Shown piece after piece: positions 6,184 to 20,421 of a DNA stretch of 20,719 nt. The notes beneath the pieces were generated by a model. The model saw only the letters and a program-made list of their open reading frames with translations, had not been told where the DNA came from and searched no databases. Source of the stretch: a virus; IMG/VR virus record IMGVR_UViG_3300024517_000133, positions 1 through 20,719 of that record. The stretch is one strand, 5' to 3'. Made by a program: the position numbers and the translations under genes. Within the stretch, counting starts at the first letter, position 1, and every line of letters starts with the position of its first letter.

Positions 6184-8979
6184 TTATGAAACCCCAGTCA
6201 GGAGTTGTTGTTCATGATAATTGCCCACGATATTATCATAGTTGTATAAAGTATCATAGTTATACGTTTGCTGTATAGCGTTGAAGTTACCGGTACTCAC
6301 TGAGTCCATCTGCGAAGCGAAGACAAAATTGTTCTCTAAAGCTGAAACATCAGGTCTGTGCTCCCGTAGTTCCTCGAGCTGATCTTCCTGCTCTTGAAGC
6401 GCAAGCTGTTTTTGTTCAATATCTTCAGCATTCTGGTAGTTTTCCAAATCTATGAACAGTGTACCAACCTCCTGGGCAAAATCTAGGGCTGTGTCGAGTA
6501 GTTGTTCACCTGACATCAGGGCCAGCTCTTTAAACATATCCGGATTTTTTGAGTATACTGCAGCAATAGTTATAATTAATGCTGTTAGGAAGTTGTTACC
6601 GCTGTGTTTCGCTACGAATATAAAGAGCTCTCCAATAGCCCAGTTCACTACGAGCTGTTCGACTATCGCCAGGAATCCTGCGTAAATTGAGGTGGCTGCA
6701 CTAAAGGCTGTACCAAAGGATATGACAGTAACTATAATCAATATAATGACTAAAACGAACTCAAACAGGTCAAGGAAAGCTGATGTCTCGTACCACTCCA
6801 GGTGAGTAATAACGACTGCGTTCATATCCATCCTACAAAGGTATTGGAACACTTCCATCTGCTCTCGAGCAGGGACCTCATCGAAGATCTTCCAGGATAT
6901 AGGAATAGTAAAATTCTCGTCTACAACAGTATTTAGAGCAACTTCGTGATAAGTTTGATAGTTGATCGATGTCATACCATTAACATTGGTCAGTACCATT
7001 TCATCATAGAAGTTATCTACTTTTTGGTACTGCAGAGTTAATGTATTTGCTACGGTAGTGGAGTGTATATAGCTACCGGTGGCTGCTATAGTGCCAGCTA
7101 CTCCAAGATTGACTGTATGTCCAGACCATACGATAGCATTCTCAATGTCGCCTTCTTTTAAGGTGGCCGAGAGTAGATCTACGTTGGACTGCAGGCCGGA
7201 GGTGATCAGGATTTGCTCCCACTGTAGCCACAACATTTTAGAAACGATTGGGTTCGTGTCAAATGGGCTAACAGAAAAATTAAGGTAAGAATCATCGATC
7301 TGGGCTATATCCGGGTTAGCTCCAGTTGCGTCAAGAAACTGATTAATATCTAAACCCACACGGGACATTAACATCCTGGTAGTAAAGAATTCTGGGGAGA
7401 GAGGGGCGTGTAATACATCCCACTGCGTTTTCTCTTTTCTAATAATTGCCAATGGCATCATTTGCAGATCGCTTATAGACTGATGAGTTGCTGCCAAATC
7501 GTATGTAATATCACTGTGAGGATGGACCCAGTAATGGAATTGGCCTGGAGGCTCACTATCATCTGAGTATGTGACAATAATAGATGGTTCTTTAACAAAA
7601 GCCGGCGTTTTGATGAAGCTATCCAATATCAATGTTGTGCCTGGGGTAGGGTCACTGGTTTTATCGAGAATTGTAACTGTTGAAGTAGCACCAATATTTA
7701 TGCCGTCTATATCTGAAGAATTGAGTAAGGATACCCGAAACTGCTCGAGATCATCATTAGCTACATCAGCAAAGATGTCGACAGTTATTTGTTGGATCTC
7801 ACCATTCGTACCAGCAAAACTTAGTGTGCCCGGCGTGTTGTCGTAATCAACTCCTCCTGTTATACCTCCCAGGTCTGTGAAGGTGTAGTCCACGGTAAAG
7901 GCGCCAGACGGAGCTACCTGGTTCAGTACGACATCGATCGTAATGGTGGTATTGGCTTCTTCAGTAAGTTGATCACTCATCGTCAATAGCAATGCGTCAT
8001 CGTCGGTGATGGTCGTAGTCACCGTATCGAGCGCATTGATATTTACATGTTCGAATACACCGGTCCCATTATCTAATGTGGCAATGGTTATGGCCATGGT
8101 TCTGTTGGCGTTTCCTGTCTCGAGGGTTACTAGATCTACTGTGATCTCATCCACATTCTGAGGCATGATAACCGAGGCAACCTCAGTGAAGTCGACACCG
8201 TTTACCGCAGTCCCTGCGTAACTGAAGCCGATCGTAATCTGTTCGCCGCTGGGCACCACCCGGTTAGACCTGATTGTGTAAGTGGCAGTTTCTCCTTCGG
8301 TGATCTGGCTAGGGCCGTAGATAAAAAATTCCGCAGTTTCCATCGTACGACTAAGAGAGATCGTGTAATTATTAGGGCCGGAGTTAAAAATTATATCGTC
8401 GACAAACCATCCTTCTCGAGTGGCTCCATACAGTGTATCGGTGAAGGTCAGGGTATTCAGCCAAGCCTTATAGTTGTGGGTTGTCTTCATATCCCAGTAG
8501 TAATACTGGAACTCGGTAGGATTTCTGTCGATTGCGCTTAGTACAGTATGGGTAGATCCAAGTTCAGCATCCAAAGCTAATTGCACATCATCAAAGTTAA
8601 CAAATGTGCCCTTTAATACCATCTCAGGTAGGCCATTCCAGAAAAGATCGAGCTCACCGTAACGGAAATATGATTTAAGCTGACCTTTGACTCTAAATAC
8701 TTGAGCCATGAAATTTGGAAAGAAGTCGGTCTCGTTTCGGACCATATTTAGAACAGCTCGAGCAACCCCAGCTTCGTAAACATCGATAGTATTTTGGCTA
8801 TAGACTCGACTTGATATTCGTTGAACGTTTATTATCGTTTCATCTTCGATACCAAACCAGGAAAATACCTCTTCCAGGATAGGTTCGACTACAGCGTCCC
8901 ACACAGCTTTTACTACGTCTGTAAAGGCGTCCCATACAGCGGTTAGAACATCTTCAATGAAGCTGATTACGGCGCTCAT
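6184..8979 (-). CDS. Calx-beta-containing virion/tail protein with hydrophobic C-terminal block (931 aa)
   Basis: Residues 1-45 form amphipathic helices with a repeated AVWDA unit. Residues 50-220 contain a conserved-looking structural region (for example ELDLFWNGLPEMVLKG). Two Calx-beta domains follow, at about 222-328 and 329-439. Each has the family's G-x-D-F/Y strand (GTAVNGVDFT; GGVDYDNTPGTLSF) and the closing T-V/T-I-T-D/L-D-D/K edge (TTTITDDD; STVTILDK). Residues 450-730 are beta-rich and aromatic. Residues 733-810 are strongly hydrophobic (FVLVIILIIVTVISF and three further helices). The last 120 residues contain a Gln/Glu coiled coil and a Tyr/Asn tail. Calx-beta domains are calcium-binding beta sandwiches known in exchangers and adhesins. 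In a phage virion they would suit surface binding or a calcium-triggered step. The hydrophobic block suggests membrane insertion during entry. The start overlaps the previous stop (ATGA). Confidence 0.7.
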   Translation of the reverse strand: MSAVISFIEDVLTAVWDAFTDVVKAVWDAVVEPILEEVFSWFGIEDETIINVQRISSRVYSQNTIDVYEAGVARAVLNMVRNETDFFPNFMAQVFRVKGQLKSYFRYGELDLFWNGLPEMVLKGTFVNFDDVQLALDAELGSTHTVLSAIDRNPTEFQYYYWDMKTTHNYKAWLNTLTFTDTLYGATREGWFVDDIIFNSGPNNYTISLSRTMETAEFFIYGPSQITEGETATYTIRSNRVVPSGEQITIGFSYAGTAVNGVDFTEVASVIMPQNVDEITVDLVTLETGNANRTMAITIATLDNGTGVFEHVNINALDTVTTTITDDDALLLTMSDQLTEEANTTITIDVVLNQVAPSGAFTVDYTFTDLGGITGGVDYDNTPGTLSFAGTNGEIQQITVDIFADVANDDLEQFRVSLLNSSDIDGINIGATSTVTILDKTSDPTPGTTLILDSFIKTPAFVKEPSIIVTYSDDSEPPGQFHYWVHPHSDITYDLAATHQSISDLQMMPLAIIRKEKTQWDVLHAPLSPEFFTTRMLMSRVGLDINQFLDATGANPDIAQIDDSYLNFSVSPFDTNPIVSKMLWLQWEQILITSGLQSNVDLLSATLKEGDIENAIVWSGHTVNLGVAGTIAATGSYIHSTTVANTLTLQYQKVDNFYDEMVLTNVNGMTSINYQTYHEVALNTVVDENFTIPISWKIFDEVPAREQMEVFQYLCRMDMNAVVITHLEWYETSAFLDLFEFVLVIILIIVTVISFGTAFSAATSIYAGFLAIVEQLVVNWAIGELFIFVAKHSGNNFLTALIITIAAVYSKNPDMFKELALMSGEQLLDTALDFAQEVGTLFIDLENYQNAEDIEQKQLALQEQEDQLEELREHRPDVSALENNFVFASQMDSVSTGNFNAIQQTYNYDTLYNYDNIVGNYHEQQLLTGVS

Positions 8980-9452
8980 TTCTTGATCTCTTTATCAATC
9001 AGTTTAATCATCTTCTGTCTGAAATGGTCAACCCGGATCATTAACGGGTGATTAGGATTTGCATGAGCACGCATCATTGAGGATACGGTCAGTAGGGATT
9101 TATATTCCTGTATCATCTTGCCTGGGTGTAACGCGAAACGGAGCATGCATGTTTCACGATCGCTAAAATAAAATACCCCGGTGAACAGAGATAGCATTTC
9201 CACAGGGTTATTCATTCCGAATATAGCCACCCCATGGGCTAATCGCTCATTTTCTTTTGTGTAGTACAGGAACGTGTTCTCGCTGCACCAGGCGTGGTTT
9301 TCGTTGACGCTGAGGGCCATACGAGTTTTAAACTCTGCGTGCTGATCTTCAGGTATCCAGTGTTTTATTTGGTCGAAATGAGGATCTATGTCCGACGTCA
9401 AGCAACGGCGACACTCTAGTTTCCTATCAAAGATCTCTTTAAGAACGGGCAT
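8976..9452 (-). CDS. Unassigned 158-aa protein downstream of the ketosynthase
   Basis: I do not recognise this protein with confidence. It is soluble, with a charged N-terminus holding a CRRC pair (residues 14-17), a NENHAWCSENTFLYY segment in the middle, a hydrophobic strand (LAHGVAIFGM), and a helical Lys/Arg-rich C-terminus. It overlaps the ketosynthase stop by 14 bases and ends in an ATGA overlap with the 931-residue virion gene, so its production is tied to both. There is no clear Shine-Dalgarno, which also suggests translational coupling. In size and position just upstream of ejection genes it recalls T7 gp13, a GNAT-fold protein, but the GNAT acetyl-CoA loop is not evident. It might be an acyl-transfer partner for the ACP, a chaperone, or a virion protein. 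All of these are speculation. Confidence 0.55.
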   Translation of the reverse strand: MPVLKEIFDRKLECRRCLTSDIDPHFDQIKHWIPEDQHAEFKTRMALSVNENHAWCSENTFLYYTKENERLAHGVAIFGMNNPVEMLSLFTGVFYFSDRETCMLRFALHPGKMIQEYKSLLTVSSMMRAHANPNHPLMIRVDHFRQKMIKLIDKEIKK

Positions 9453-10287
9453 TTGGTTTCGTTAGCGTAAAAGAGCCATAGTAACCTCCCAGGCCGTTGG
9501 CTACAACCAGGATCCTGCCTCTTATGTTCGAATCGTCCAGTAATAGACAAGTTTCAAGAAGAGCGCTGATCCCTTGGGTGTGCCCTATATGTCCTTTGTA
9601 CTCCAGTGGCGTAGCAAATCTTGCTAAGTCAGCCTCAGCTTCATCATTTGATTTAGTTCCGGTTCCGTGTAGCTTCACATATCCAACTTTGTAGGCAGGA
9701 ATCAGGTTGTTTAAAGTTTCCCGGGTGAACATAAATGGATTAGCGTTATACGCCCAGAGCCACTGTGGCTTGCTAATTTCTATGCCTTTCCCCAACCTCA
9801 TGTATACAAAACCGTCACCACAGGTTACTTTGATACCAAGCTCCTTGAACAGGCGCATTGTGTCCTGGGTGGTACGTTCGTGTCCGATGATAATAATCTC
9901 TTCGACGCCACTCAAATGGTCATAAAGTAGCTCATGAGCACGTTTTATGGCGTGGATAGCAGATGCGCACGTACCATTAACGACTTCCATCGATCGCAGC
10001 AATTCTATATTCTTGAATGTAGAAGCCCACTGATGGGCCACATATGGCGTTGAATCTTTAAGCGCCGGGCGGTATTTTCCCTGGGACACACCAATACCGG
10101 ACTCTGACTGGTCGACCTGGGTCCCAGCTATGTATATAAACGCCGTAGGTACGGTAAGCTCTATGTTTAAATTCGTGAGCTCAATAAATTGTGGAGTTGC
10201 AGGTTTGTTTCGTACCAACTCTGTTATTGCGACGAAGCCTCTATCAGCGTGGGTTCCGTGGAGGTATTGATAATCGATAATCTGCAT
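9439..10287 (-). CDS. Compact beta-ketoacyl-ACP synthase-like enzyme (282 aa)
   Basis: This is a thiolase-fold ketosynthase, the class that condenses an acyl-thioester with a malonyl-ACP. The KAS I/II catalytic triad can be read directly: the nucleophile Cys107 in VNGTCASAIHAI (FabF-type DTACASG), His207 in VKLHGTGTKSNDEAEADL (FabF-type NAHGTSTxxND), and His236 in GHIGHTQGISALLE (FabF-type GHxxGAAG). A Gly-rich C-terminal strand, NGLGGYYGSFTL, matches the GFGGTN element. At 282 residues it is much shorter than the usual 400-420, with less sequence before the Cys and between Cys and His, so this is a reduced enzyme rather than a fragment. It overlaps the ACP gene by 64 bases, which implies coupled translation, though a later start is possible since the Shine-Dalgarno is weak. 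Being next to an ACP strongly supports acyl chemistry. Substrate and product are unknown. Confidence 0.85.
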   Translation of the reverse strand: MQIIDYQYLHGTHADRGFVAITELVRNKPATPQFIELTNLNIELTVPTAFIYIAGTQVDQSESGIGVSQGKYRPALKDSTPYVAHQWASTFKNIELLRSMEVVNGTCASAIHAIKRAHELLYDHLSGVEEIIIIGHERTTQDTMRLFKELGIKVTCGDGFVYMRLGKGIEISKPQWLWAYNANPFMFTRETLNNLIPAYKVGYVKLHGTGTKSNDEAEADLARFATPLEYKGHIGHTQGISALLETCLLLDDSNIRGRILVVANGLGGYYGSFTLTKPNARS

Positions 10288-10517
10288 TGGTTTACAAGGT
10301 CCCGTATGGTTAAAGTTGTGAAGTCCAAGGTAGATAGTGCGTCGGCGTCGATCGGCACATCCTTGAAGATAGGGTAGTCTGACTCTAGCACGGCGATGGT
10401 TATCACTGTGCCCAGGCTATCGAGCTCTGCGTCTTTCCACGTATCTTTCATGGTGACACGAATCCCTTTCTCCTCAATGATTATCTCATTGAGGCGATCG
10501 AGTATTTGTTGTTTCAT
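10224..10517 (-). CDS. Acyl carrier protein-like (97 aa)
   Basis: The 97-residue protein carries an ACP fold signature. The attachment motif is ELDSLGTV with Ser34 as the expected 4'-phosphopantetheine site, followed by an acidic amphipathic helix II (ITIAVLESDYPIF) and a helix IV start (TLTIRDLVNQ) that matches the TTVQAAIDYI region of E. coli ACP. Length and helix spacing agree with bacterial ACPs. The prosthetic group would have to be added by the host's phosphopantetheinyl transferase, because none is visible here. The ATG overlaps the stop of the 235-residue structural gene (TAATG) and the 3' end overlaps the ketosynthase start. The last 15 residues (Thr/Ser/Glu-rich) lie beyond the normal ACP end and are encoded in the overlap. 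As a carrier it would hold the acyl chain for the adjacent ketosynthase. Confidence 0.85.
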   Translation of the reverse strand: MKQQILDRLNEIIIEEKGIRVTMKDTWKDAELDSLGTVITIAVLESDYPIFKDVPIDADALSTLDFTTLTIRDLVNQCRLSIINTSTEPTLIEASSQ

Positions 10518-11224
10518 TATGCCCCGAGATCAGGTGTGGCTGCTGTATTCACTGTGGCGGTGCTGCCAATATCGTCGAGCAGTTCCTGGACCAGAGCGTC
10601 AATTGCGGGCTCGGTAGCTGCATTAGGAACAGTTGCTGTACCAGCAATCGATAATGTAACAGCGTAACCGTCAAACAGCTGCTTGAGGAGTTTCTGTTTG
10701 GTATCACTAGCAAACCCTAAGGTCTGAGCTGCGATAAGGTTGGACTTGTCGTTCAGCAGACCACCGGTTGGATCAACAGTCTGAGCCACTTCAGTTACCT
10801 GCTTCTGTCCTACGAGAGCTATGTCTGCGTAGACTTTGGCAACCTGGCCGATAGTCAGATCGACTTTGTTCTCTGCATCAGTAATCTGGTGATCAATGAG
10901 GCCGGTACCAGTACTTGCGCCAAGGACCAGGTCTCCGTTGACATCAGTCGTTACGCCGAATCCCCACTGCTTTATGACAGTAGCTTCGCCGATCATGGCA
11001 TCTGTAGCAGCTTTATCTTTTTCCAGGAGGAATCCGATAGCTGCTTTTAAAATATCTGCATAGCCCTGGACATAAGCGGCAGCGAACTCAGCTCCGACAA
11101 GACGGCCAGCGTCATACTGTTCCTGAATACGAGTTTCGAATTTCTCGATGAGAACATCCAGAATTCCGGTGCCCTCTGTCGGGGTAATCTCATTTGTGAG
11201 ATCGTCTAGTGATACTGAAGCCAT
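10517..11224 (-). CDS. Helical phage structural protein (235 aa)
   Basis: This is a soluble, mainly helical protein. The N-terminal half is amphipathic (YVQGYADILKAAIGFLLEKD near residues 50-70). The middle has repeated short helices with Gln/Thr/Asp. The C-terminal pattern (IAAQTLGFASDTKQKLLKQL, about 164-183) is one I associate with hypothetical structural proteins encoded downstream of the capsid gene in podoviruses. It follows a 85-base spacer, has AGGAAAA before the ATG, and its stop overlaps the ACP start. It could be a tail-adaptor or internal head protein. I cannot name a specific function. Confidence 0.5.
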   Translation of the reverse strand: MASVSLDDLTNEITPTEGTGILDVLIEKFETRIQEQYDAGRLVGAEFAAAYVQGYADILKAAIGFLLEKDKAATDAMIGEATVIKQWGFGVTTDVNGDLVLGASTGTGLIDHQITDAENKVDLTIGQVAKVYADIALVGQKQVTEVAQTVDPTGGLLNDKSNLIAAQTLGFASDTKQKLLKQLFDGYAVTLSIAGTATVPNAATEPAIDALVQELLDDIGSTATVNTAATPDLGA

Positions 11225-11309: not shown

Positions 11310-11675
11310 TCACGGAGCAGATGGCGGAATAACTTGTGGGCCCTGAGTCAAGCTCGGAGCAGCACCAGTAATTACGTGAGCCGGGGGAATTACGGAAAAT
11401 ATTTCACGGTGTGCGTTCACAACGTGTACGGCATTTGTTCCGATAGACAAGGTTGCCTGGTAAAGACCTACGTCAGCCAGAGTCAGATCGTACGTAACTA
11501 TGCCTTGTACAGTTGCTGTGGGAGCAACATAGGTTGTGATCCCATCATCGGTATAAGCAGCAACGCCGTTTGGCGCTACCAGAGTGATATCAAAATCTGC
11601 TTTCACTGGTGGTGCGCCCGTAGGATTGATATACCAGGTAATGGTTATCGTGCTGTCTTTTGCGTAAAAACTCAT
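11310..11675 (-). CDS. Ig-like beta-sandwich virion protein, paralogue B (121 aa)
   Basis: A small beta-rich protein with no signal peptide. Its first 95 residues align end to end with the 95-residue protein at 12712-12999: ITITWYINPTGAPP against ITITWILAPTDTPL, then TTYVAPTATVQGIVTYDLT against VNYVAPTALFAGSIQYLWT, then VGLYQATLSIG against PGHYQIFLTCG. This copy has an extra Pro-rich tail of about 25 residues (GPQVIPPSAP). The alternating strand pattern with Trp and Tyr core residues suggests an Ig-like sandwich, as in phage decoration or fibre-attached domains. The ATG overlaps the stop of the beta-propeller gene. A virion surface role is inferred. Confidence 0.6.
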   Translation of the reverse strand: MSFYAKDSTITITWYINPTGAPPVKADFDITLVAPNGVAAYTDDGITTYVAPTATVQGIVTYDLTLADVGLYQATLSIGTNAVHVVNAHREIFSVIPPAHVITGAAPSLTQGPQVIPPSAP

Positions 11676-12715
11676 AATTTAAAAACTACACGATTAAGGA
11701 GCGCCTCTTGTGTGATTACAGCAAAACTATTAGCCGGCATGCCAGGGTCTCTTTGCCCACCAATTAGATAAGAATCTGGTAACGAGGAAGGAAAAAGTTC
11801 GAATCCTTCGAATGGGGTTGTAGCGTCGTGAACCCAATTTATTGCGTCATCAGAGGATAGTATAGGGTTTGTAGCGTCTTGGCACACTGCGTACCATTTG
11901 GCTTCACCAGGGAAGTATTTTATAAACAGTAACGCGTTAGCTCGACTATCCCCGGTTAAACTGTACCCATTCCATATCCCAGGACTTGTCATCAATGCAG
12001 CGTCCCAGGAACTACTAAAAGCTACTGTTTTTACACCGTCAGTAGCTATGTGATTCATATTCGGTAAGCTAGGCCATAAGGTGCCATCAGCAAATAACGT
12101 AAAGTCGGACATCGTCTGATTCGTGGTTCCGCTGTAGATACTTCGTTCTTGTCCCATACTTAAAAAGGTAGTACCAGCAAAGCCTGGCGGGCTTTCTATC
12201 CAATCGTAAAACCCTACTTCAGGGAATGTCTGTAGTAGACCACGATCGAGCCAATTTACCCCACCATCAATTGAGTACCAGCCATGCTCCCTACCCATAT
12301 AGAACACATCCTTTTCTTTAAGGTATGTGATGTAGCTGGCTATTCTTAATGGGCCGCTTGGTACGGTAGTAGCAGCAATCCAGGTAATTCCGTCAGTTGA
12401 GTGCCAAGCTTCTCTTCCGTAGTACGTAGTCATTACCCATTTACCATTGCCGTAAGCAATGTGCGGGTTTTTCGGTGTGTCAGTAACCATGGCCTGGGCA
12501 TGGAAAGTCCAGCTATCAAAGTTCATACCGGTGGTAACGAATACGCCCCACCCACCAGCGTTTTGCCGGCCAGCTATAACGAATTTAGTTCCGTCGGTAG
12601 CTATACTCCACATCTCGACTTCAGTAGTGCTAGAGCCAAACTCTAATTCAACAGGCGCTGGTATAATGGAAGCAGGGCCTAAGGCTATAAGTGATGGTTG
12701 TGTGGTTAAGCTCAT
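11672..12715 (-). CDS. Beta-propeller (BNR/Asp-box-like) virion protein (347 aa)
   Basis: The protein contains recurring units in which a short strand is followed by an Asp-box-like turn: HSTDGITW (about 105-112), SIDGGVNW (148-155) and SSDDAINW (287-294). Each is preceded by an aromatic strand such as GNGKWVMTTYYG or FYMGREHGWY. This is the repeat pattern of BNR/sialidase-type beta propellers, which phages use in tail-fibre, decoration and receptor-binding proteins. No catalytic sialidase arginine triad can be assigned, so a binding role is more likely than an enzymatic one. It sits between two paralogous Ig-like genes with ATGA overlaps on both sides, which suggests the three proteins are made together and possibly assembled together. 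Confidence 0.65.
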   Translation of the reverse strand: MSLTTQPSLIALGPASIIPAPVELEFGSSTTEVEMWSIATDGTKFVIAGRQNAGGWGVFVTTGMNFDSWTFHAQAMVTDTPKNPHIAYGNGKWVMTTYYGREAWHSTDGITWIAATTVPSGPLRIASYITYLKEKDVFYMGREHGWYSIDGGVNWLDRGLLQTFPEVGFYDWIESPPGFAGTTFLSMGQERSIYSGTTNQTMSDFTLFADGTLWPSLPNMNHIATDGVKTVAFSSSWDAALMTSPGIWNGYSLTGDSRANALLFIKYFPGEAKWYAVCQDATNPILSSDDAINWVHDATTPFEGFELFPSSLPDSYLIGGQRDPGMPANSFAVITQEALLNRVVFKL

Positions 12716-12999
12716 GACGGAAACACCCAGAAATCTTTCTTATCTTTGATTGTGTAAGCAGCCGCAACGCCACAAGTTAGGAAGATCTGGTAGTGGCCAG
12801 GCTGAGCTGGAGTCCAGAGATATTGAATACTGCCGGCGAATAGTGCGGTCGGCGCCACATAGTTTACAATTGCGGCATCCGTATAAGTCCCGTCCAAGCC
12901 GGATGGGACAAACCTGATATCATAATCAGTAGCCGCTAACGGAGTATCAGTGGGTGCAAGGATCCACGTAATGGTTATTTCGTTGCCGGCTATATACAT
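12712..12999 (-). CDS. Ig-like beta-sandwich virion protein, paralogue A (95 aa)
   Basis: This is the shorter of two paralogues flanking the beta-propeller gene (see 11310-11675 for the aligned segments). It has the same strand order and the shared cores ITITW, DYDIRFVP and NYVAPTA, but lacks the Pro-rich tail. It contains one cysteine (LTCGVAAAY) that is absent from the partner. No signal peptide or membrane segment is seen. Overlap with the downstream gene (ATGA) implies co-translation. It is probably a small virion-surface or adaptor domain, inferred from fold pattern and location. Confidence 0.6.
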   Translation of the reverse strand: MYIAGNEITITWILAPTDTPLAATDYDIRFVPSGLDGTYTDAAIVNYVAPTALFAGSIQYLWTPAQPGHYQIFLTCGVAAAYTIKDKKDFWVFPS

Positions 13000-13648: not shown

Positions 13649-14944
13649 TTATGCAGAGGCACAAACGTAGATTTTCAGCAAACGCTCTTCGCGCAGGATT
13701 ATTCCTGCATACCACATGTTGTAGCTGAAGAAGCCCTGAGTGCCGTAAGGGTTACTAAGCTCGATCTTGCTCGGCGCCTGGGCGTTGAACTTGATCTTGC
13801 CGTTGCCTTTAAGGCCGACAGTTGCAAATGAACCCTTGGTAGGGAACAGGATTGGGAAAACGTCAAGACGCTCTTCACCAGTGGCGTACTCAGTCAAGCC
13901 AAGGAATGTATCCAGGGCTGTGGCTTCGGCAGAAGTCAGAACGGTACTAGACAATGTACCAACGTAAGCACCGTCACCAGGAACGACAGTAGAGGGAGTT
14001 AACCCGCCAGCGCCTTCATAGATAACAGCAGATTCAGACTCAATGAAACGAACATCGTTCATTGCACCAACTTCGCCTTCAGCCAGGTTAGTGGCATCAG
14101 CGTATTTGTATGCCGGAATATAAGCATACTCGGTGCTGTCAGCTGAAGTTGTGCCAGTAGCACGAACAACATCTTCCAGGTCGAATTTCACTTCTGCGCC
14201 GATTATGGCGTAGAAAGCTTTGTTGATAACGCGAGTATCAATCTTGGTAGAACCAGTAACGATTGAAGTGTTCTTCTGAGCACGGTTACGAACCAGCTTC
14301 TTGGTAGCGGTACGAATCAGGTCATAGCTAACTTTAGCCAGGCCATCATTGTCGCCATCTACGCCGGCTTGCAAGTCACCAAGGTCATCACCCAAATCTT
14401 CGATAGCTGCAGCAGCACCAACGAAAACGATGTTGGTAGTGGTGAGCATGTCGAGCTGGATCAGATCTTCCGCTCTGCGGTTAGCCAGGAGGCCAAGCTC
14501 TTCGCGGTAATGTACCTGTACCATGTCCTCTGCGAACATATCGACTTCGTCGGTGAAGTCAATCATTTCGCCATAACGCGCGAAATCAGTTTGGATAGTT
14601 ACTTTGGTGATGTTCTGCTTGTTAACAGCTCCATCGCCTTCAGCAAGCTCTGCACCGACCAGGCCGGTAGAAACATCAACGATGTTCCGGGCTTGCAAGT
14701 AGCCTTTAGCAGCGAAATCAGGATCAGTGGTTAACCGATCGAAGATGTGCAGCCACTTCGAGACTTTGTAAGTGGTACCCATTTTAAGGGGCATGGATCT
14801 ACGATCTGCAAACTGTGCGTACACAGCAATTGCGTTAGCGGCTTTGACACCAGCTTTGTCGTAGTAATGAATGACAGTGTTCTGTCCGTGTGTCGAGTCG
14901 CCTGTCGCACGGGAAGTTACACCATAAAAGTTTGTAACGGCCAT
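13649..14944 (-). CDS. Major capsid protein, N4-gp56-like family (431 aa)
   Basis: The N-terminal third has the HK97-fold pattern typical of N4-gp56-type capsids: FADRRSMPLKMGTTYKVSKW (about 45-64), then a helix and strand region with DFARYGEMIDFTDEVDMFAE (about 120-139) and a conserved spine helix (REELGLLANRRAEDL). A predicted E-loop and A-domain follow, and the C-terminus ends with aromatic strands (GFFSYNMWYAGIILREERLL). Length suits the family (about 400-430). It lies directly after the acidic scaffold, has the strongest ribosome site in the window, and is followed by a hairpin, all consistent with high-level production. Several hundred copies would form the head shell. Confidence 0.88.
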   Translation of the reverse strand: MAVTNFYGVTSRATGDSTHGQNTVIHYYDKAGVKAANAIAVYAQFADRRSMPLKMGTTYKVSKWLHIFDRLTTDPDFAAKGYLQARNIVDVSTGLVGAELAEGDGAVNKQNITKVTIQTDFARYGEMIDFTDEVDMFAEDMVQVHYREELGLLANRRAEDLIQLDMLTTTNIVFVGAAAAIEDLGDDLGDLQAGVDGDNDGLAKVSYDLIRTATKKLVRNRAQKNTSIVTGSTKIDTRVINKAFYAIIGAEVKFDLEDVVRATGTTSADSTEYAYIPAYKYADATNLAEGEVGAMNDVRFIESESAVIYEGAGGLTPSTVVPGDGAYVGTLSSTVLTSAEATALDTFLGLTEYATGEERLDVFPILFPTKGSFATVGLKGNGKIKFNAQAPSKIELSNPYGTQGFFSYNMWYAGIILREERLLKIYVCASA

Positions 14945-16674: not shown

Positions 16675-18729
16675 TTATTTTGCTGGCTGAGGCTTATTTG
16701 CCTCGATCGCAATCTTGGTGAAGTTGTCTGACTGGGCTTTATCCATGACAGCTTTGTGGTCAATTCTTTTCAGATCTACTTCTCGAGCATGCTTCGTACC
16801 GTCGGCTATATTGGTAAACTCAAGATCCTTGAGGTCTGTATCCGCCAGCAACTGACGAGTCCTGGCCTGGTTGAGCATGGCCTGAGTTTCTTTATTGATC
16901 ATATCGACCTCGTTCTCACGGGTCCTGGAATTACGTTCAGCGATTTCAGACTCGACCTTCATGACCTCGAGTTCCTTCATCTTCTCAGCGAAGGGGTCAG
17001 GTTTCGGCTCGAAGGTTTCCATTGCCTTGGATAGGTCAGGCATTCTGTGCAGTTTGGCGATCTCGGCCATCAGCAGGTTCCGCATTCCCTGGTCCATGCC
17101 TTGGCCGAGAGTCTGCAGCAAGAAGCTGAGCTCCTGTGCTTTAGAGGAGTTGTCTTCTGCAGTTGACACTTCAATCTTAATGTCGATCTCACCTCTAAGG
17201 TCGTCACGTTTTACAGGAACGAATTCATCGTTGGTAATCCGGACTACTTCCTCTTCGCCAAGGAACTCACTGTTGTAAGACATCCATTTGCGCATCAGAG
17301 GATTTATATGGTTTTCGGCAATGTTGCGGACGATATCTAATCTACGGACGTTTACCGCATCAAGTACACCGCTGGCAGCTCGAGCCGTAGATCCAAGAGA
17401 TGCTCCCTGTATACCTCCAGTAAAAGCTTTGACGCCAAGCATCGAATCGTTTTCGTTGTTGTTCTGCTCCATGACGGCGAACACACTTTGAGGAATAGCG
17501 TTGTAATTCCCTTCGAAGAAATCTTGCTGGTTACCGTTAAATTCGAAGTTCTTGCCGTTCAGGAAGCGCTTCTTGTTGATCGGATCCAGGGCGCCAGTTC
17601 GTATACCCTTCTGGGCATTGTTCGAATTGGCCATGTTATCTATGATACCGCGTTTAATGGCAGTATTTATCTTCTGATTATCACCAATCAGTTCAGCAGC
17701 AGCTTCGCCGTAGATCTTGAATGGCGTGCTGTTGTTCATCAGAATCAGGAACGGAAGGTCCTGATCCGGGTAAGGATTCGACTCTAGCTGGATAATAATG
17801 TCGTTGACCCAAGTACATACTACTGGCTCAGCAACTCCATCACCGTCGACATCGTAATTACCCCAGTATTCATATACCACGATTTTCTTTCTGGGCTCAT
17901 CTTCGAATACGAATTCGCTCTCGTCTTCCGGATCAAAGTCTTCAGAGTCAAATGCCGCACTGTCGTTTTTACCGGCTATATTACGAGCCAGCTTGTTGAG
18001 GTTTTTGTACTTACCAGATTTGCGTAATGTAGATAAGTCAGTTTCATAACGATGAATTACGAACTGAGCTTTATTCATATCACCTTCTGATGTCGGGTCC
18101 AGGAATATGTCTTCGAGACGGCAAACTTGTACATGTGGTTTATTGACGAGAACATTGATACGCTTGACTTCTTTGGTACCAATCTGTGTGGGTTGACCTG
18201 TCAAGTCTAGGCCGAATACGGGAACCTCTTCTTCAACTATTTCGTCTTCGTAGTCCCAGCTGGTTTTGGAGATAACCGTACCTTCCTGGTAGTAAAGCTT
18301 GACGACATCCGTCATGTATTTATAACGGTTGAAGTGACGGGTGAACTGTTGGTTAAGAACTAACTCGTTTTGCTGTGCAGCTGCACGGTCTTCGAAGGTG
18401 ACCGGCTGACATTTGACGATATCAGGATCTGCTACGAAAGGATCCTTGATGGAGGCATGCTGCCACTCATCCTGGCGTTTAATGTCTCGAGATACGATAC
18501 ATGACTTTCCAGACTGCTCATTGCCGTACAATTCGCCGTTGTAGTAGTCTCTCCAGGTTTCAACCTTGGCAACCATCTCCAGGCGCAAGCAATCAGCGGC
18601 TTTCATGTCCGCTTTAAAATCTTTTAAGATTTGTGCTTTGGTAGGCTTCTTTGGTACGCCAGTATTATCGATGGTCTTAGCATCGGCTATACCACCGCCT
18701 TCACCTGTAAATTCGTCACCTATAGGCAT
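16675..18729 (-). CDS. Portal protein, N4-like (684 aa)
   Basis: The protein is 684 residues, close to large podovirus portals (N4 gp59 is about 760). It has a disordered Gly-rich N-terminus and a helical region with ETWRDYYNGELYG (about 57-69). A wing-type beta region contains PHVQVCRLEDIFLDPTSEGD, the 'locating' segment typical of portals. A central aromatic strand region (ENVFEFNG-like element near KNFEFNGNQQDF) and a long helix (GSTARAASGVLDAVNVRRLD) follow. The C-terminal Lys/Glu coiled coil ends near the ATG-proximal gap. The ring of twelve would form the vertex through which DNA is packed and ejected. The order portal, small protein, scaffold, capsid is standard. The start follows the holin stop by three bases. 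Confidence 0.82.
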   Translation of the reverse strand: MPIGDEFTGEGGGIADAKTIDNTGVPKKPTKAQILKDFKADMKAADCLRLEMVAKVETWRDYYNGELYGNEQSGKSCIVSRDIKRQDEWQHASIKDPFVADPDIVKCQPVTFEDRAAAQQNELVLNQQFTRHFNRYKYMTDVVKLYYQEGTVISKTSWDYEDEIVEEEVPVFGLDLTGQPTQIGTKEVKRINVLVNKPHVQVCRLEDIFLDPTSEGDMNKAQFVIHRYETDLSTLRKSGKYKNLNKLARNIAGKNDSAAFDSEDFDPEDESEFVFEDEPRKKIVVYEYWGNYDVDGDGVAEPVVCTWVNDIIIQLESNPYPDQDLPFLILMNNSTPFKIYGEAAAELIGDNQKINTAIKRGIIDNMANSNNAQKGIRTGALDPINKKRFLNGKNFEFNGNQQDFFEGNYNAIPQSVFAVMEQNNNENDSMLGVKAFTGGIQGASLGSTARAASGVLDAVNVRRLDIVRNIAENHINPLMRKWMSYNSEFLGEEEVVRITNDEFVPVKRDDLRGEIDIKIEVSTAEDNSSKAQELSFLLQTLGQGMDQGMRNLLMAEIAKLHRMPDLSKAMETFEPKPDPFAEKMKELEVMKVESEIAERNSRTRENEVDMINKETQAMLNQARTRQLLADTDLKDLEFTNIADGTKHAREVDLKRIDHKAVMDKAQSDNFTKIAIEANKPQPAK

Positions 18730-19279: not shown

Positions 19280-19625
19280 CGAACACCTCCTGAGTTTTCT
19301 TGATCATTAAATTTTCAATTAGGCCAGGCTTTCTCGTTATTAGCTTAGCAAAATCGTGGTCTTGGAACAGGTCACGCATCTTATTGACCTCGAGCCTGGC
19401 TTGATTACGTTCCATCTCTATAACCGCGGTCTTTGCAGCAAACTGTTTTAGCTGTATATCAACCAGCTCTTTCTCCTGTTGCGCTGTACGCAACGAAGTT
19501 TCAGCAGCTTCTACTTTAATAATAGCCACTTGAAGGTCATTTTTCAACTGCAGGTTAGCAGTGTAGAAGAACCAGGCAAGTAGCCCCATGGCTACAACAC
19601 CGGCAAGTAATCCTTTAGTTATCAT
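19251..19625 (-). CDS. i-spanin (Rz-like inner-membrane protein, 124 aa)
   Basis: I choose the ATG at 19625 rather than one 15 codons earlier, because GGAGA lies at correct spacing and the protein then starts MITKGLLAGVVAMGLLAWFF, an N-terminal membrane anchor. A long coiled-coil follows (KVEAAETSLRTAQQEKELVD and onward to about residue 90), and the C-terminal segment contains KPGLIENLMIKKTQEVFDEI. This anchor-plus-periplasmic-coil design is that of Rz-type inner-membrane spanins. The gene overlaps the end of the sulfotransferase gene by 11 bases and the start of the o-spanin gene by 29. Confidence 0.75.
   Translation of the reverse strand: MITKGLLAGVVAMGLLAWFFYTANLQLKNDLQVAIIKVEAAETSLRTAQQEKELVDIQLKQFAAKTAVIEMERNQARLEVNKMRDLFQDHDFAKLITRKPGLIENLMIKKTQEVFDEIETLTAP
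19284..19291 (-). promoter_or_regulatory. Strong Shine-Dalgarno inside the i-spanin gene for the o-spanin
   Basis: AGGAGGTG lies four bases before the o-spanin ATG and within the i-spanin coding region. It supports independent initiation of the overlapping o-spanin frame. Confidence 0.65.
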
Positions 19626-20421
19626 CTTTGTGTCTCCAAAATTGTGCATCATAATACTGGTTAAATGCATTATTCCCTATAAGCCCAGCGGCATTAACAA
19701 CTACTGGCTCTACTTTAGGGCGTATTGTGTGGAGACCAGGTATACCATGAATATCGTCGTTCTCATGGGTGACTTGCTCCACGTTATTGAAATCGTGTTC
19801 GAATAGGTCCTCATCAAGAAACTTATATATTTCTGCCATAGTTTCTTTAGGATCACATGTTAAGTCTTCGAATTCTACCAGATGCATACGGCCTTCAAAT
19901 CCTCGATCCAGTGAATCACGGATCTGATTATAGGCTAAACCTACTGGCTGGTTATCTTGCATCAAGACATTGGCTCGGCCTTCCATTGTCTGCCAGGCAT
20001 GATAATTTGTTTTTTCTTGTGGGAACTCCCAGTCATGAGCATTTGCACGATACAGTTTTTCGAATGAAGCAAGTATATCTACGATCGACCGAACAGGAAC
20101 CAAGATTTTGACTCTAGCCCCGAGGAGGTGCTCAGCAAGATCTATTTTGCCAACCCAACCTCGAGACTTATCAAATACCACTGGCCGCTCGACCTCTTCG
20201 TGATAACTGTTAAGGATTCCCCTCATCACCTGGGTTTTTCCTTCCTTGTTGGGTGAGGCCGCAAAAGCGGTCACATTCTCCCATTGATTCCGGATAGCGA
20301 GCACAATCTCCAGTATCCCGGAGGTTGAAGTTGCGTGGAATCGAGGGTTCTGATTCAGGATATTGCACAATAAGGTTGAGCCGGCTCGAGGGAACCCCGC
20401 TATGAAGTGTAGTGTTTTCAC
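19615..20421 (-). CDS. Sulfotransferase-family protein (268 aa)
   Basis: This is a P-loop sulfotransferase-type protein, moving a sulfuryl group from PAPS to an acceptor. The 5'-phosphosulfate-binding loop is FIAGFPRAGSTLL at residues 6-18, with Arg12 and Ser15-Thr16 in place. The 3'-phosphate-binding region is VPVRSIVDILASFEKLY (about 110-126), with the expected Arg and Ser. An F-E-D-L-T segment (about 183-187) and a C-terminal helical end complete the family layout. The start is a GTG that overlaps the upstream stop (GTGA), with GGGGGAG close by. Sulfotransferase genes are known in marine phages. The acceptor here is unknown; a host surface polymer or a virion protein are both possible. Its place inside the lysis genes is unusual. 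Confidence 0.85.
   Translation of the reverse strand: MKTLHFIAGFPRAGSTLLCNILNQNPRFHATSTSGILEIVLAIRNQWENVTAFAASPNKEGKTQVMRGILNSYHEEVERPVVFDKSRGWVGKIDLAEHLLGARVKILVPVRSIVDILASFEKLYRANAHDWEFPQEKTNYHAWQTMEGRANVLMQDNQPVGLAYNQIRDSLDRGFEGRMHLVEFEDLTCDPKETMAEIYKFLDEDLFEHDFNNVEQVTHENDDIHGIPGLHTIRPKVEPVVVNAAGLIGNNAFNQYYDAQFWRHKDDN

Follow-up and report, generated by a model that had tools for sequence, protein, structure and literature searches.

In a stretch of 20,719 bases from an IMG/VR virus record (a fragment, hereafter the window), genes for an acyl carrier protein (ACP), a ketosynthase (KS) and a protein with a predicted GNAT fold lie between two virion genes, and the large structural protein encoded just downstream bears an N-terminal extension that covaries with this cassette in two phage lineages. 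Many uncultured tailed phages carry such genes amid their virion genes, and the cassette, together with the special start of its neighbour, suggests that a fatty chain is added to a protein of the phage's own particle. We consider the chances about evenly balanced that the genes form a phage-encoded protein-acylation cassette, which would work with ACP-bound acyl chains and target the neighbouring structural protein. A preliminary description of this DNA had singled out the ACP–KS pair; the GNAT-fold third gene and the covarying extension go beyond it. No publication describing the cassette was found in the open PMC text, in which the literature on Bcep22, followed as a lead, also yielded nothing.

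The ACP, KS and GNAT-fold genes of the window

The features of the window that bear on the cassette, all on the minus strand, are:

16675–18729 (−): SU10-type portal protein (PF23899, 3e-132)
13649–14944 (−): major head protein (phrog_1357, 2e-71)
10517–11224 (−): virion structural protein of 235 residues, N4 gp54-like, bordering the cassette on its upstream side (phrog_2050)
10224–10517 (−): ACP of 97 residues with predicted phosphopantetheine Ser34 in ELDSLG (family profile, invariant Asp-Ser)
9439–10287 (−): compact beta-ketoacyl-ACP synthase (KAS type) of 282 residues, with Cys107, His207, Lys231 and His236 (Pfam, profile)
8976–9452 (−): GNAT-fold protein of 158 residues, candidate acyltransferase (structure model)
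6184–8979 (−): structural protein of 931 residues, N4 gp53-like, with transmembrane segments, candidate substrate (Schitoviridae homologues)
8845–8979 (−): amphipathic N-terminal extension of the 931-residue protein, ~45 residues, starting MSAVISFIEDVLTAVWDAF (relatives compared)

The gene positions and overlaps given in the preliminary description are exact by the window coordinates: the 235-residue gene overlaps the ACP gene by 1 base (TAATG), the ACP and KS genes share 64 bases, the KS and 158-residue genes share 14 bases, and the 158- and 931-residue genes meet at ATGA. Ser34 in ELDSLG and the KS residues Cys107, His207 and His236 are likewise present as it had them, and so is Lys231. The context is virion-like, with the SU10-type portal, the major head protein and a virion structural protein recognized by Pfam and PHROGs. 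A virion RNA polymerase gene was not identified within this fragment; the order portal–major head protein–gp54–gp53 and N4-like homologues were found. The 931-residue protein is homologous to the Schitoviridae 'N4 gp53 protein' or 'TMhelix containing protein', and the structural proteins flanking the cassette correspond to the gp54–gp53 pair of N4-like phages (Schitoviridae).

Elsewhere in the window, a sulfotransferase-family protein lies near the portal end (19615–20421, −; Sulfotransfer_3 3e-14 and Sulfotransfer_1 2e-10 in Pfam). Proteins of 121 residues (11310–11675, −) and 95 residues (12712–12999, −) with similar ITITW/ITW openings flank a 347-residue protein; in the close relative L001 starts of this type are fused onto longer proteins, and the short proteins look like shuffled Ig-like decoration domains.

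The window ACP alone gave no significant Pfam match; single-sequence ACP searches were too weak, and family profiles were used instead. The ACP family profile retrieved almost only acyl carrier proteins from the PDB (best 6.8e-4), the Asp-Ser pair is invariant in 11/11 and in 26/26 aligned ACPs, and 13 of the 26 ACP relatives of the other lineage (see below) match PP-binding in Pfam. By family profile and invariant Asp-Ser the 97-residue protein is an ACP, with Ser34 as putative phosphopantetheine site and a predicted conversion to the holo form. Matches of the ACP with 'tail tube' proteins of Vibrio, at an E of about 1, were treated as chance.

The window KS alone matches Pfam Ketoacyl-synt_C at E=7e-5, and a profile of 17 sequences of its family matches FabF-type structures at 3.8e-29; on this family evidence the 282-residue protein is a KAS-type ketosynthase, unambiguous as a family and weak as a single sequence. 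Among 110 full-length KS relatives the catalytic Cys is conserved in 109 and the His, Lys and His in 110 each, and condensing activity is predicted from this Cys-His-Lys-His set and from family similarity. Thus the identities first assigned to both proteins from motifs are borne out by the profile matches, and Cys107 and Ser34 prove to be conserved among their homologues. The families and active-site residues are those of KAS II (FabF) and AcpP in type II fatty acid synthesis, and the ACP–KS order is that of bacterial acpP-fabF. Unlike FabF, the window-type KS has 275–290 residues rather than about 410, is accompanied by no reductase that we could find and sits with virion genes.

The sole full-length copy of the 110 with Arg at the catalytic Cys is that of locus L131 (5236–6345), whose record also encodes a holo-ACP synthase (AcpS); this KS is possibly inactive or repurposed, or the Arg may reflect a sequence or alignment error. 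No cultured phage with a KS was found in the collections searched, and the sole named KS-bearing record, MW202545, is an environmental sample. KS matches of 24–29% identity in other 'phages' records, mostly unannotated and with names that refer to Listeria phages, Enterococcus phages and others, were read as probable bacterial contamination. The KS and GNAT of the other virion-operon lineage (L002-type) had no relatives in bacterial genomes in scans that detect close relatives only, and therefore no prophage or host copy was found.

Pfam, PHROGs and PDB profile searches of the third gene were uninformative, and it was placed by fold prediction only. The AlphaFold model of the window's 158-residue protein (pLDDT 85) gave a best Foldseek E of 2e-3 (prob 1.00), with none at E≤1e-3; nearly all of the PDB matches listed were GNATs, VIA Z was 10.1 to Ard1, and N-terminal protein acetyltransferases stood among the top matches. 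The model of the third-gene protein from the other lineage (pLDDT 95) gave 82 Foldseek matches at E≤1e-3, of which those listed were GNATs, and a VIA Z of 11.9 with RimI. A GNAT acyltransferase fold is predicted for the 158-residue protein from its model. Since both third-gene models match GNAT enzymes, the two lineages share ACP, KS and GNAT in that order. A scan with a reduced alignment of window-type GNATs gave six loci.

The string [RQ]xxGx[GA] is the usual CoA-loop motif of GNATs (acyl-CoA pyrophosphate); of the 81 third-gene proteins, only 11 contained it in a string scan that took no account of position at the loop. A GNAT-fold protein of a phage may have a structural role and no catalytic one, and ACPs serve as structural partners elsewhere. 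With the motif this scarce, the genes could encode non-catalytic assembly factors, the ACP acting as chaperone or scaffold and the GNAT-fold protein as a component of the particle, with both docking on the extension. We regard this as unlikely: the conserved KS catalytic residues and the phage AcpS imply a loaded ACP, and GNAT-fold toxin-activating acyltransferases that use acyl-ACP likewise lack the CoA elements (PMC8339906, PMC8510554). This acyl-ACP-dependent toxin-activating acylation is the nearest working analogue of the proposed phage system, and the phage protein falls outside that family by sequence. No match to the HlyC family (PF02794) was obtained in Pfam for the third-gene proteins of the window, L001 and the L002-type loci; D21 is common to the window-type GNATs and H25 to most of them, residues that may or may not correspond to the catalytic His/Asp dyad of HlyC.

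Recurrence and reduced forms of the cassette

L001 has the same gene order as the window and a KS 66% identical to it; together with the distant relative MW202545 it led to 66 further loci. A follow-up scan returned at least 413 related stretches, possibly including ordinary KS genes, and 140 loci with a KS open reading frame were reduced to 113 distinct KS. An ACP motif precedes the KS in 108 of the 113 according to a loose script, a few of whose rows show a DS string that does not contain the ACP serine, and also in L033 on reading the DNA; the remaining four KS start too close to a contig end to show an upstream ACP. The ACP–KS order thus recurs in related phages at every distinct KS locus with enough upstream sequence.

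By context, 73 of these KS lie in virion operons of the L002 type and 9 in those of the window type, while 28 belong to a replication-type region and 3 are unassigned; the virion-operon copies belong to two unrelated phage lineages. The virion-operon placement stressed in the preliminary description therefore holds for the window and most copies but fails as a general rule. In the 28 replication-type copies neither the GNAT nor the structural protein lies alongside the ACP–KS pair, which can therefore do something else. Five records of this lineage, with ACP–KS away from virion genes, encode a phage AcpS; none was found in the window-type records searched. Two of its positions are:

L112, 1021–1395: phage AcpS (PF01648)
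L131, 1035–1400: phage AcpS (PF01648)

When the second lineage's GNAT served as search anchor, ACP, KS and GNAT were found together in 72/76 loci, two more being cut at a contig end. The dN/dS of ACP, KS and third gene was 0.00–0.14 in nine informative close pairs, which come from the L002-type and replication-type groups, with none from the group of the window (the members of a tenth pair hardly differed; in the replication-type pair L023/L027 the third gene is an HTH-like gene, not a GNAT). In these groups the genes are under purifying selection, and the pairing is more than chance because the same order is kept in many relatives at these low ratios.

If ACP and KS were auxiliary metabolic genes, they would redirect host fatty acid synthesis, for membrane lipid supply or fluidity, and their location in a late operon would be incidental. 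This is the published reading of roseophage acpP/fabF/fabG (PMC8224337) and of the gp30 'acyl carrier protein' of Alteromonas phage vB_AmeP-R22Y (Schitoviridae) (PMC11705849). The intact KS active site is compatible with it, as is the third lineage, in which ACP–KS lies outside the virion operon and five records carry AcpS. We nonetheless find a metabolic role rather unlikely: no FabG-type reductase was found in the 32 records searched (0 of 32), such a role explains neither the tight order with the GNAT nor why the N-terminus of the structural protein that follows covaries with the cassette, and the ACP persists beside the GNAT without a KS.

Such KS-less forms include R22Y itself, whose gp30 is homologous to the cassette ACP and occupies the corresponding position in an N4-like virion operon; the available part of its description (PMC11705849) discusses neither the GNAT nor the N-terminal extension. 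Alteromonas phages R22Y and PT11-V19 both encode ACP, GNAT and gp53-like protein in this order with no KS in either whole record, and the contig locus L244 has ACP–GNAT with the KS absent. The view of ACP and KS as the functional minimum is not supported, given these three cases, and on the acylation reading the KS would be an optional supplier, as R22Y and PT11-V19 illustrate. In L244 (5413–8586) the large protein opens MCNPIEK, with an N-terminal Cys once Met is removed. In one further phage, represented by two loci, GNAT and extension are kept while the ACP and all but 35 residues of the KS are gone, an apparent natural deletion that spared the GNAT and the MSAV protein:

L195, 1685–1789: 35-residue KS remnant upstream of intact GNAT
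L198, record G050:C1:18879-18983: 35-residue KS remnant upstream of intact GNAT

Covariation of the N-terminal extension with the cassette

In the window, R22Y and PT11-V19 the gp53-like protein starts with an amphipathic stretch of ~45 residues of the pattern M-[S/G/A]-[A/G]-V.... In the seven cassette-less, N4-like relatives examined, all Schitoviridae-type phages, gp53 follows gp54 with no intervening ACP, KS or GNAT (one of the seven has an HNH endonuclease there), and the extension is absent from their gp53.

The motif was found in 59/66 next-downstream large proteins versus 11/553 other open reading frames of the same loci, and in 46/48 of the genes that come next in GNAT-anchored loci. 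It had been picked after viewing the first set, and sorting the other lineage by presence or absence of the cassette is therefore the fairer test. There, among loci retrieved with the C-terminal portion of the large protein and sorted by script (the cassette-bearing ones partly drawn from previously seen contigs), M-[GSA]-[AG]-V opens 11/11 distinct large proteins when ACP, KS and GNAT are all present and 2/34 when none of them is (Fisher 8e-9, a value that overstates independence because related sequences are counted as independent). Four distinct proteins accompanied by the GNAT alone had mixed starts. As an open reading frame was taken to start at the first start codon past a stop, some N-termini may be set too early, most likely among the cassette-less group.

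This covariation would also fit a docking site instead of an acylation site. Acylation is favoured by the KS-less ACP–GNAT isolates R22Y and PT11-V19, which retain the extension, and disfavoured by the phage that retains GNAT and extension despite the loss of the ACP and most of the KS.

A possible route to acylation of the gp53-like protein

Under the acylation proposal, a host holo-ACP synthase (or the phage AcpS in one lineage) would convert the phage ACP to its holo form, which would then carry an acyl chain. Where a KS is present, it would condense a host acyl chain with malonyl-phage-ACP, leaving the chain on the phage ACP, and host reductases would complete the chain, since the search for a FabG of the phage turned up none. 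Like a toxin-activating acyltransferase, the GNAT-fold protein would use acyl-ACP as donor and pass the chain to the N-terminal extension of the gp53-like protein, either to the N-terminal Ser, Gly or Ala after Met removal or to a nearby side chain. The lipid could help this protein, with its membrane segments, to engage the envelope in tail assembly or genome ejection. The earlier guess of acylation of a virion protein gains support from the GNAT-fold neighbour and the covarying extension; acylation itself, with the loading of the ACP, the donor used, the site modified and any part in entry, is what we infer, the identities, gene order, residues, selection and covariation being drawn from sequences and models.

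Some GNAT-fold enzymes pair acyl-ACP with small acceptors. By analogy with LuxI or N-acyl-amino-acid synthases, ACP and KS could make a 3-oxoacyl chain that the GNAT would transfer to a small acceptor, yielding a small molecule or envelope lipid that serves as a signal or is membrane-active. An envelope-directed lipid was also among the products suggested in the preliminary description. The conservation of both KS and GNAT agrees with this reading, but we judge it unlikely, as it gives no reason for the tie to the N-terminus of a structural protein; N-terminal protein acetyltransferases are also among the best fold matches, although the nature of the acceptor does not follow from the fold.

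The acylation of a structural protein would resemble the HlyC/ApxC/CyaC and class IV CdiC systems, in which a GNAT-fold enzyme encoded by an adjacent gene acylates a large envelope-acting protein from acyl-ACP (PMC8339906, PMC8510554). In contrast to the RTX acyltransferases and CdiC, to which no sequence relation was detected, the phage cassette encodes its own ACP and often a KS, and it would act on a structural protein of the phage. To our knowledge, acyl-ACP-dependent lipidation is known in no tailed-phage virion protein. More tentatively, tailed phages may use an ACP, a KS and a GNAT acyltransferase of their own to put a lipid on the N-terminus of a tail protein or an ejected protein, a counterpart of N-myristoylation or RTX-toxin activation for crossing the host envelope.

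The two cultured Alteromonas phages with the ACP–GNAT form make the acylation reading testable now. If it is true, phages carry a full system for lipidating proteins of their own particles from acyl-ACP, and phage genes now labelled metabolic would shift to the virion assembly class. It would also bear on how short-tailed phages pass proteins and DNA across the envelope.
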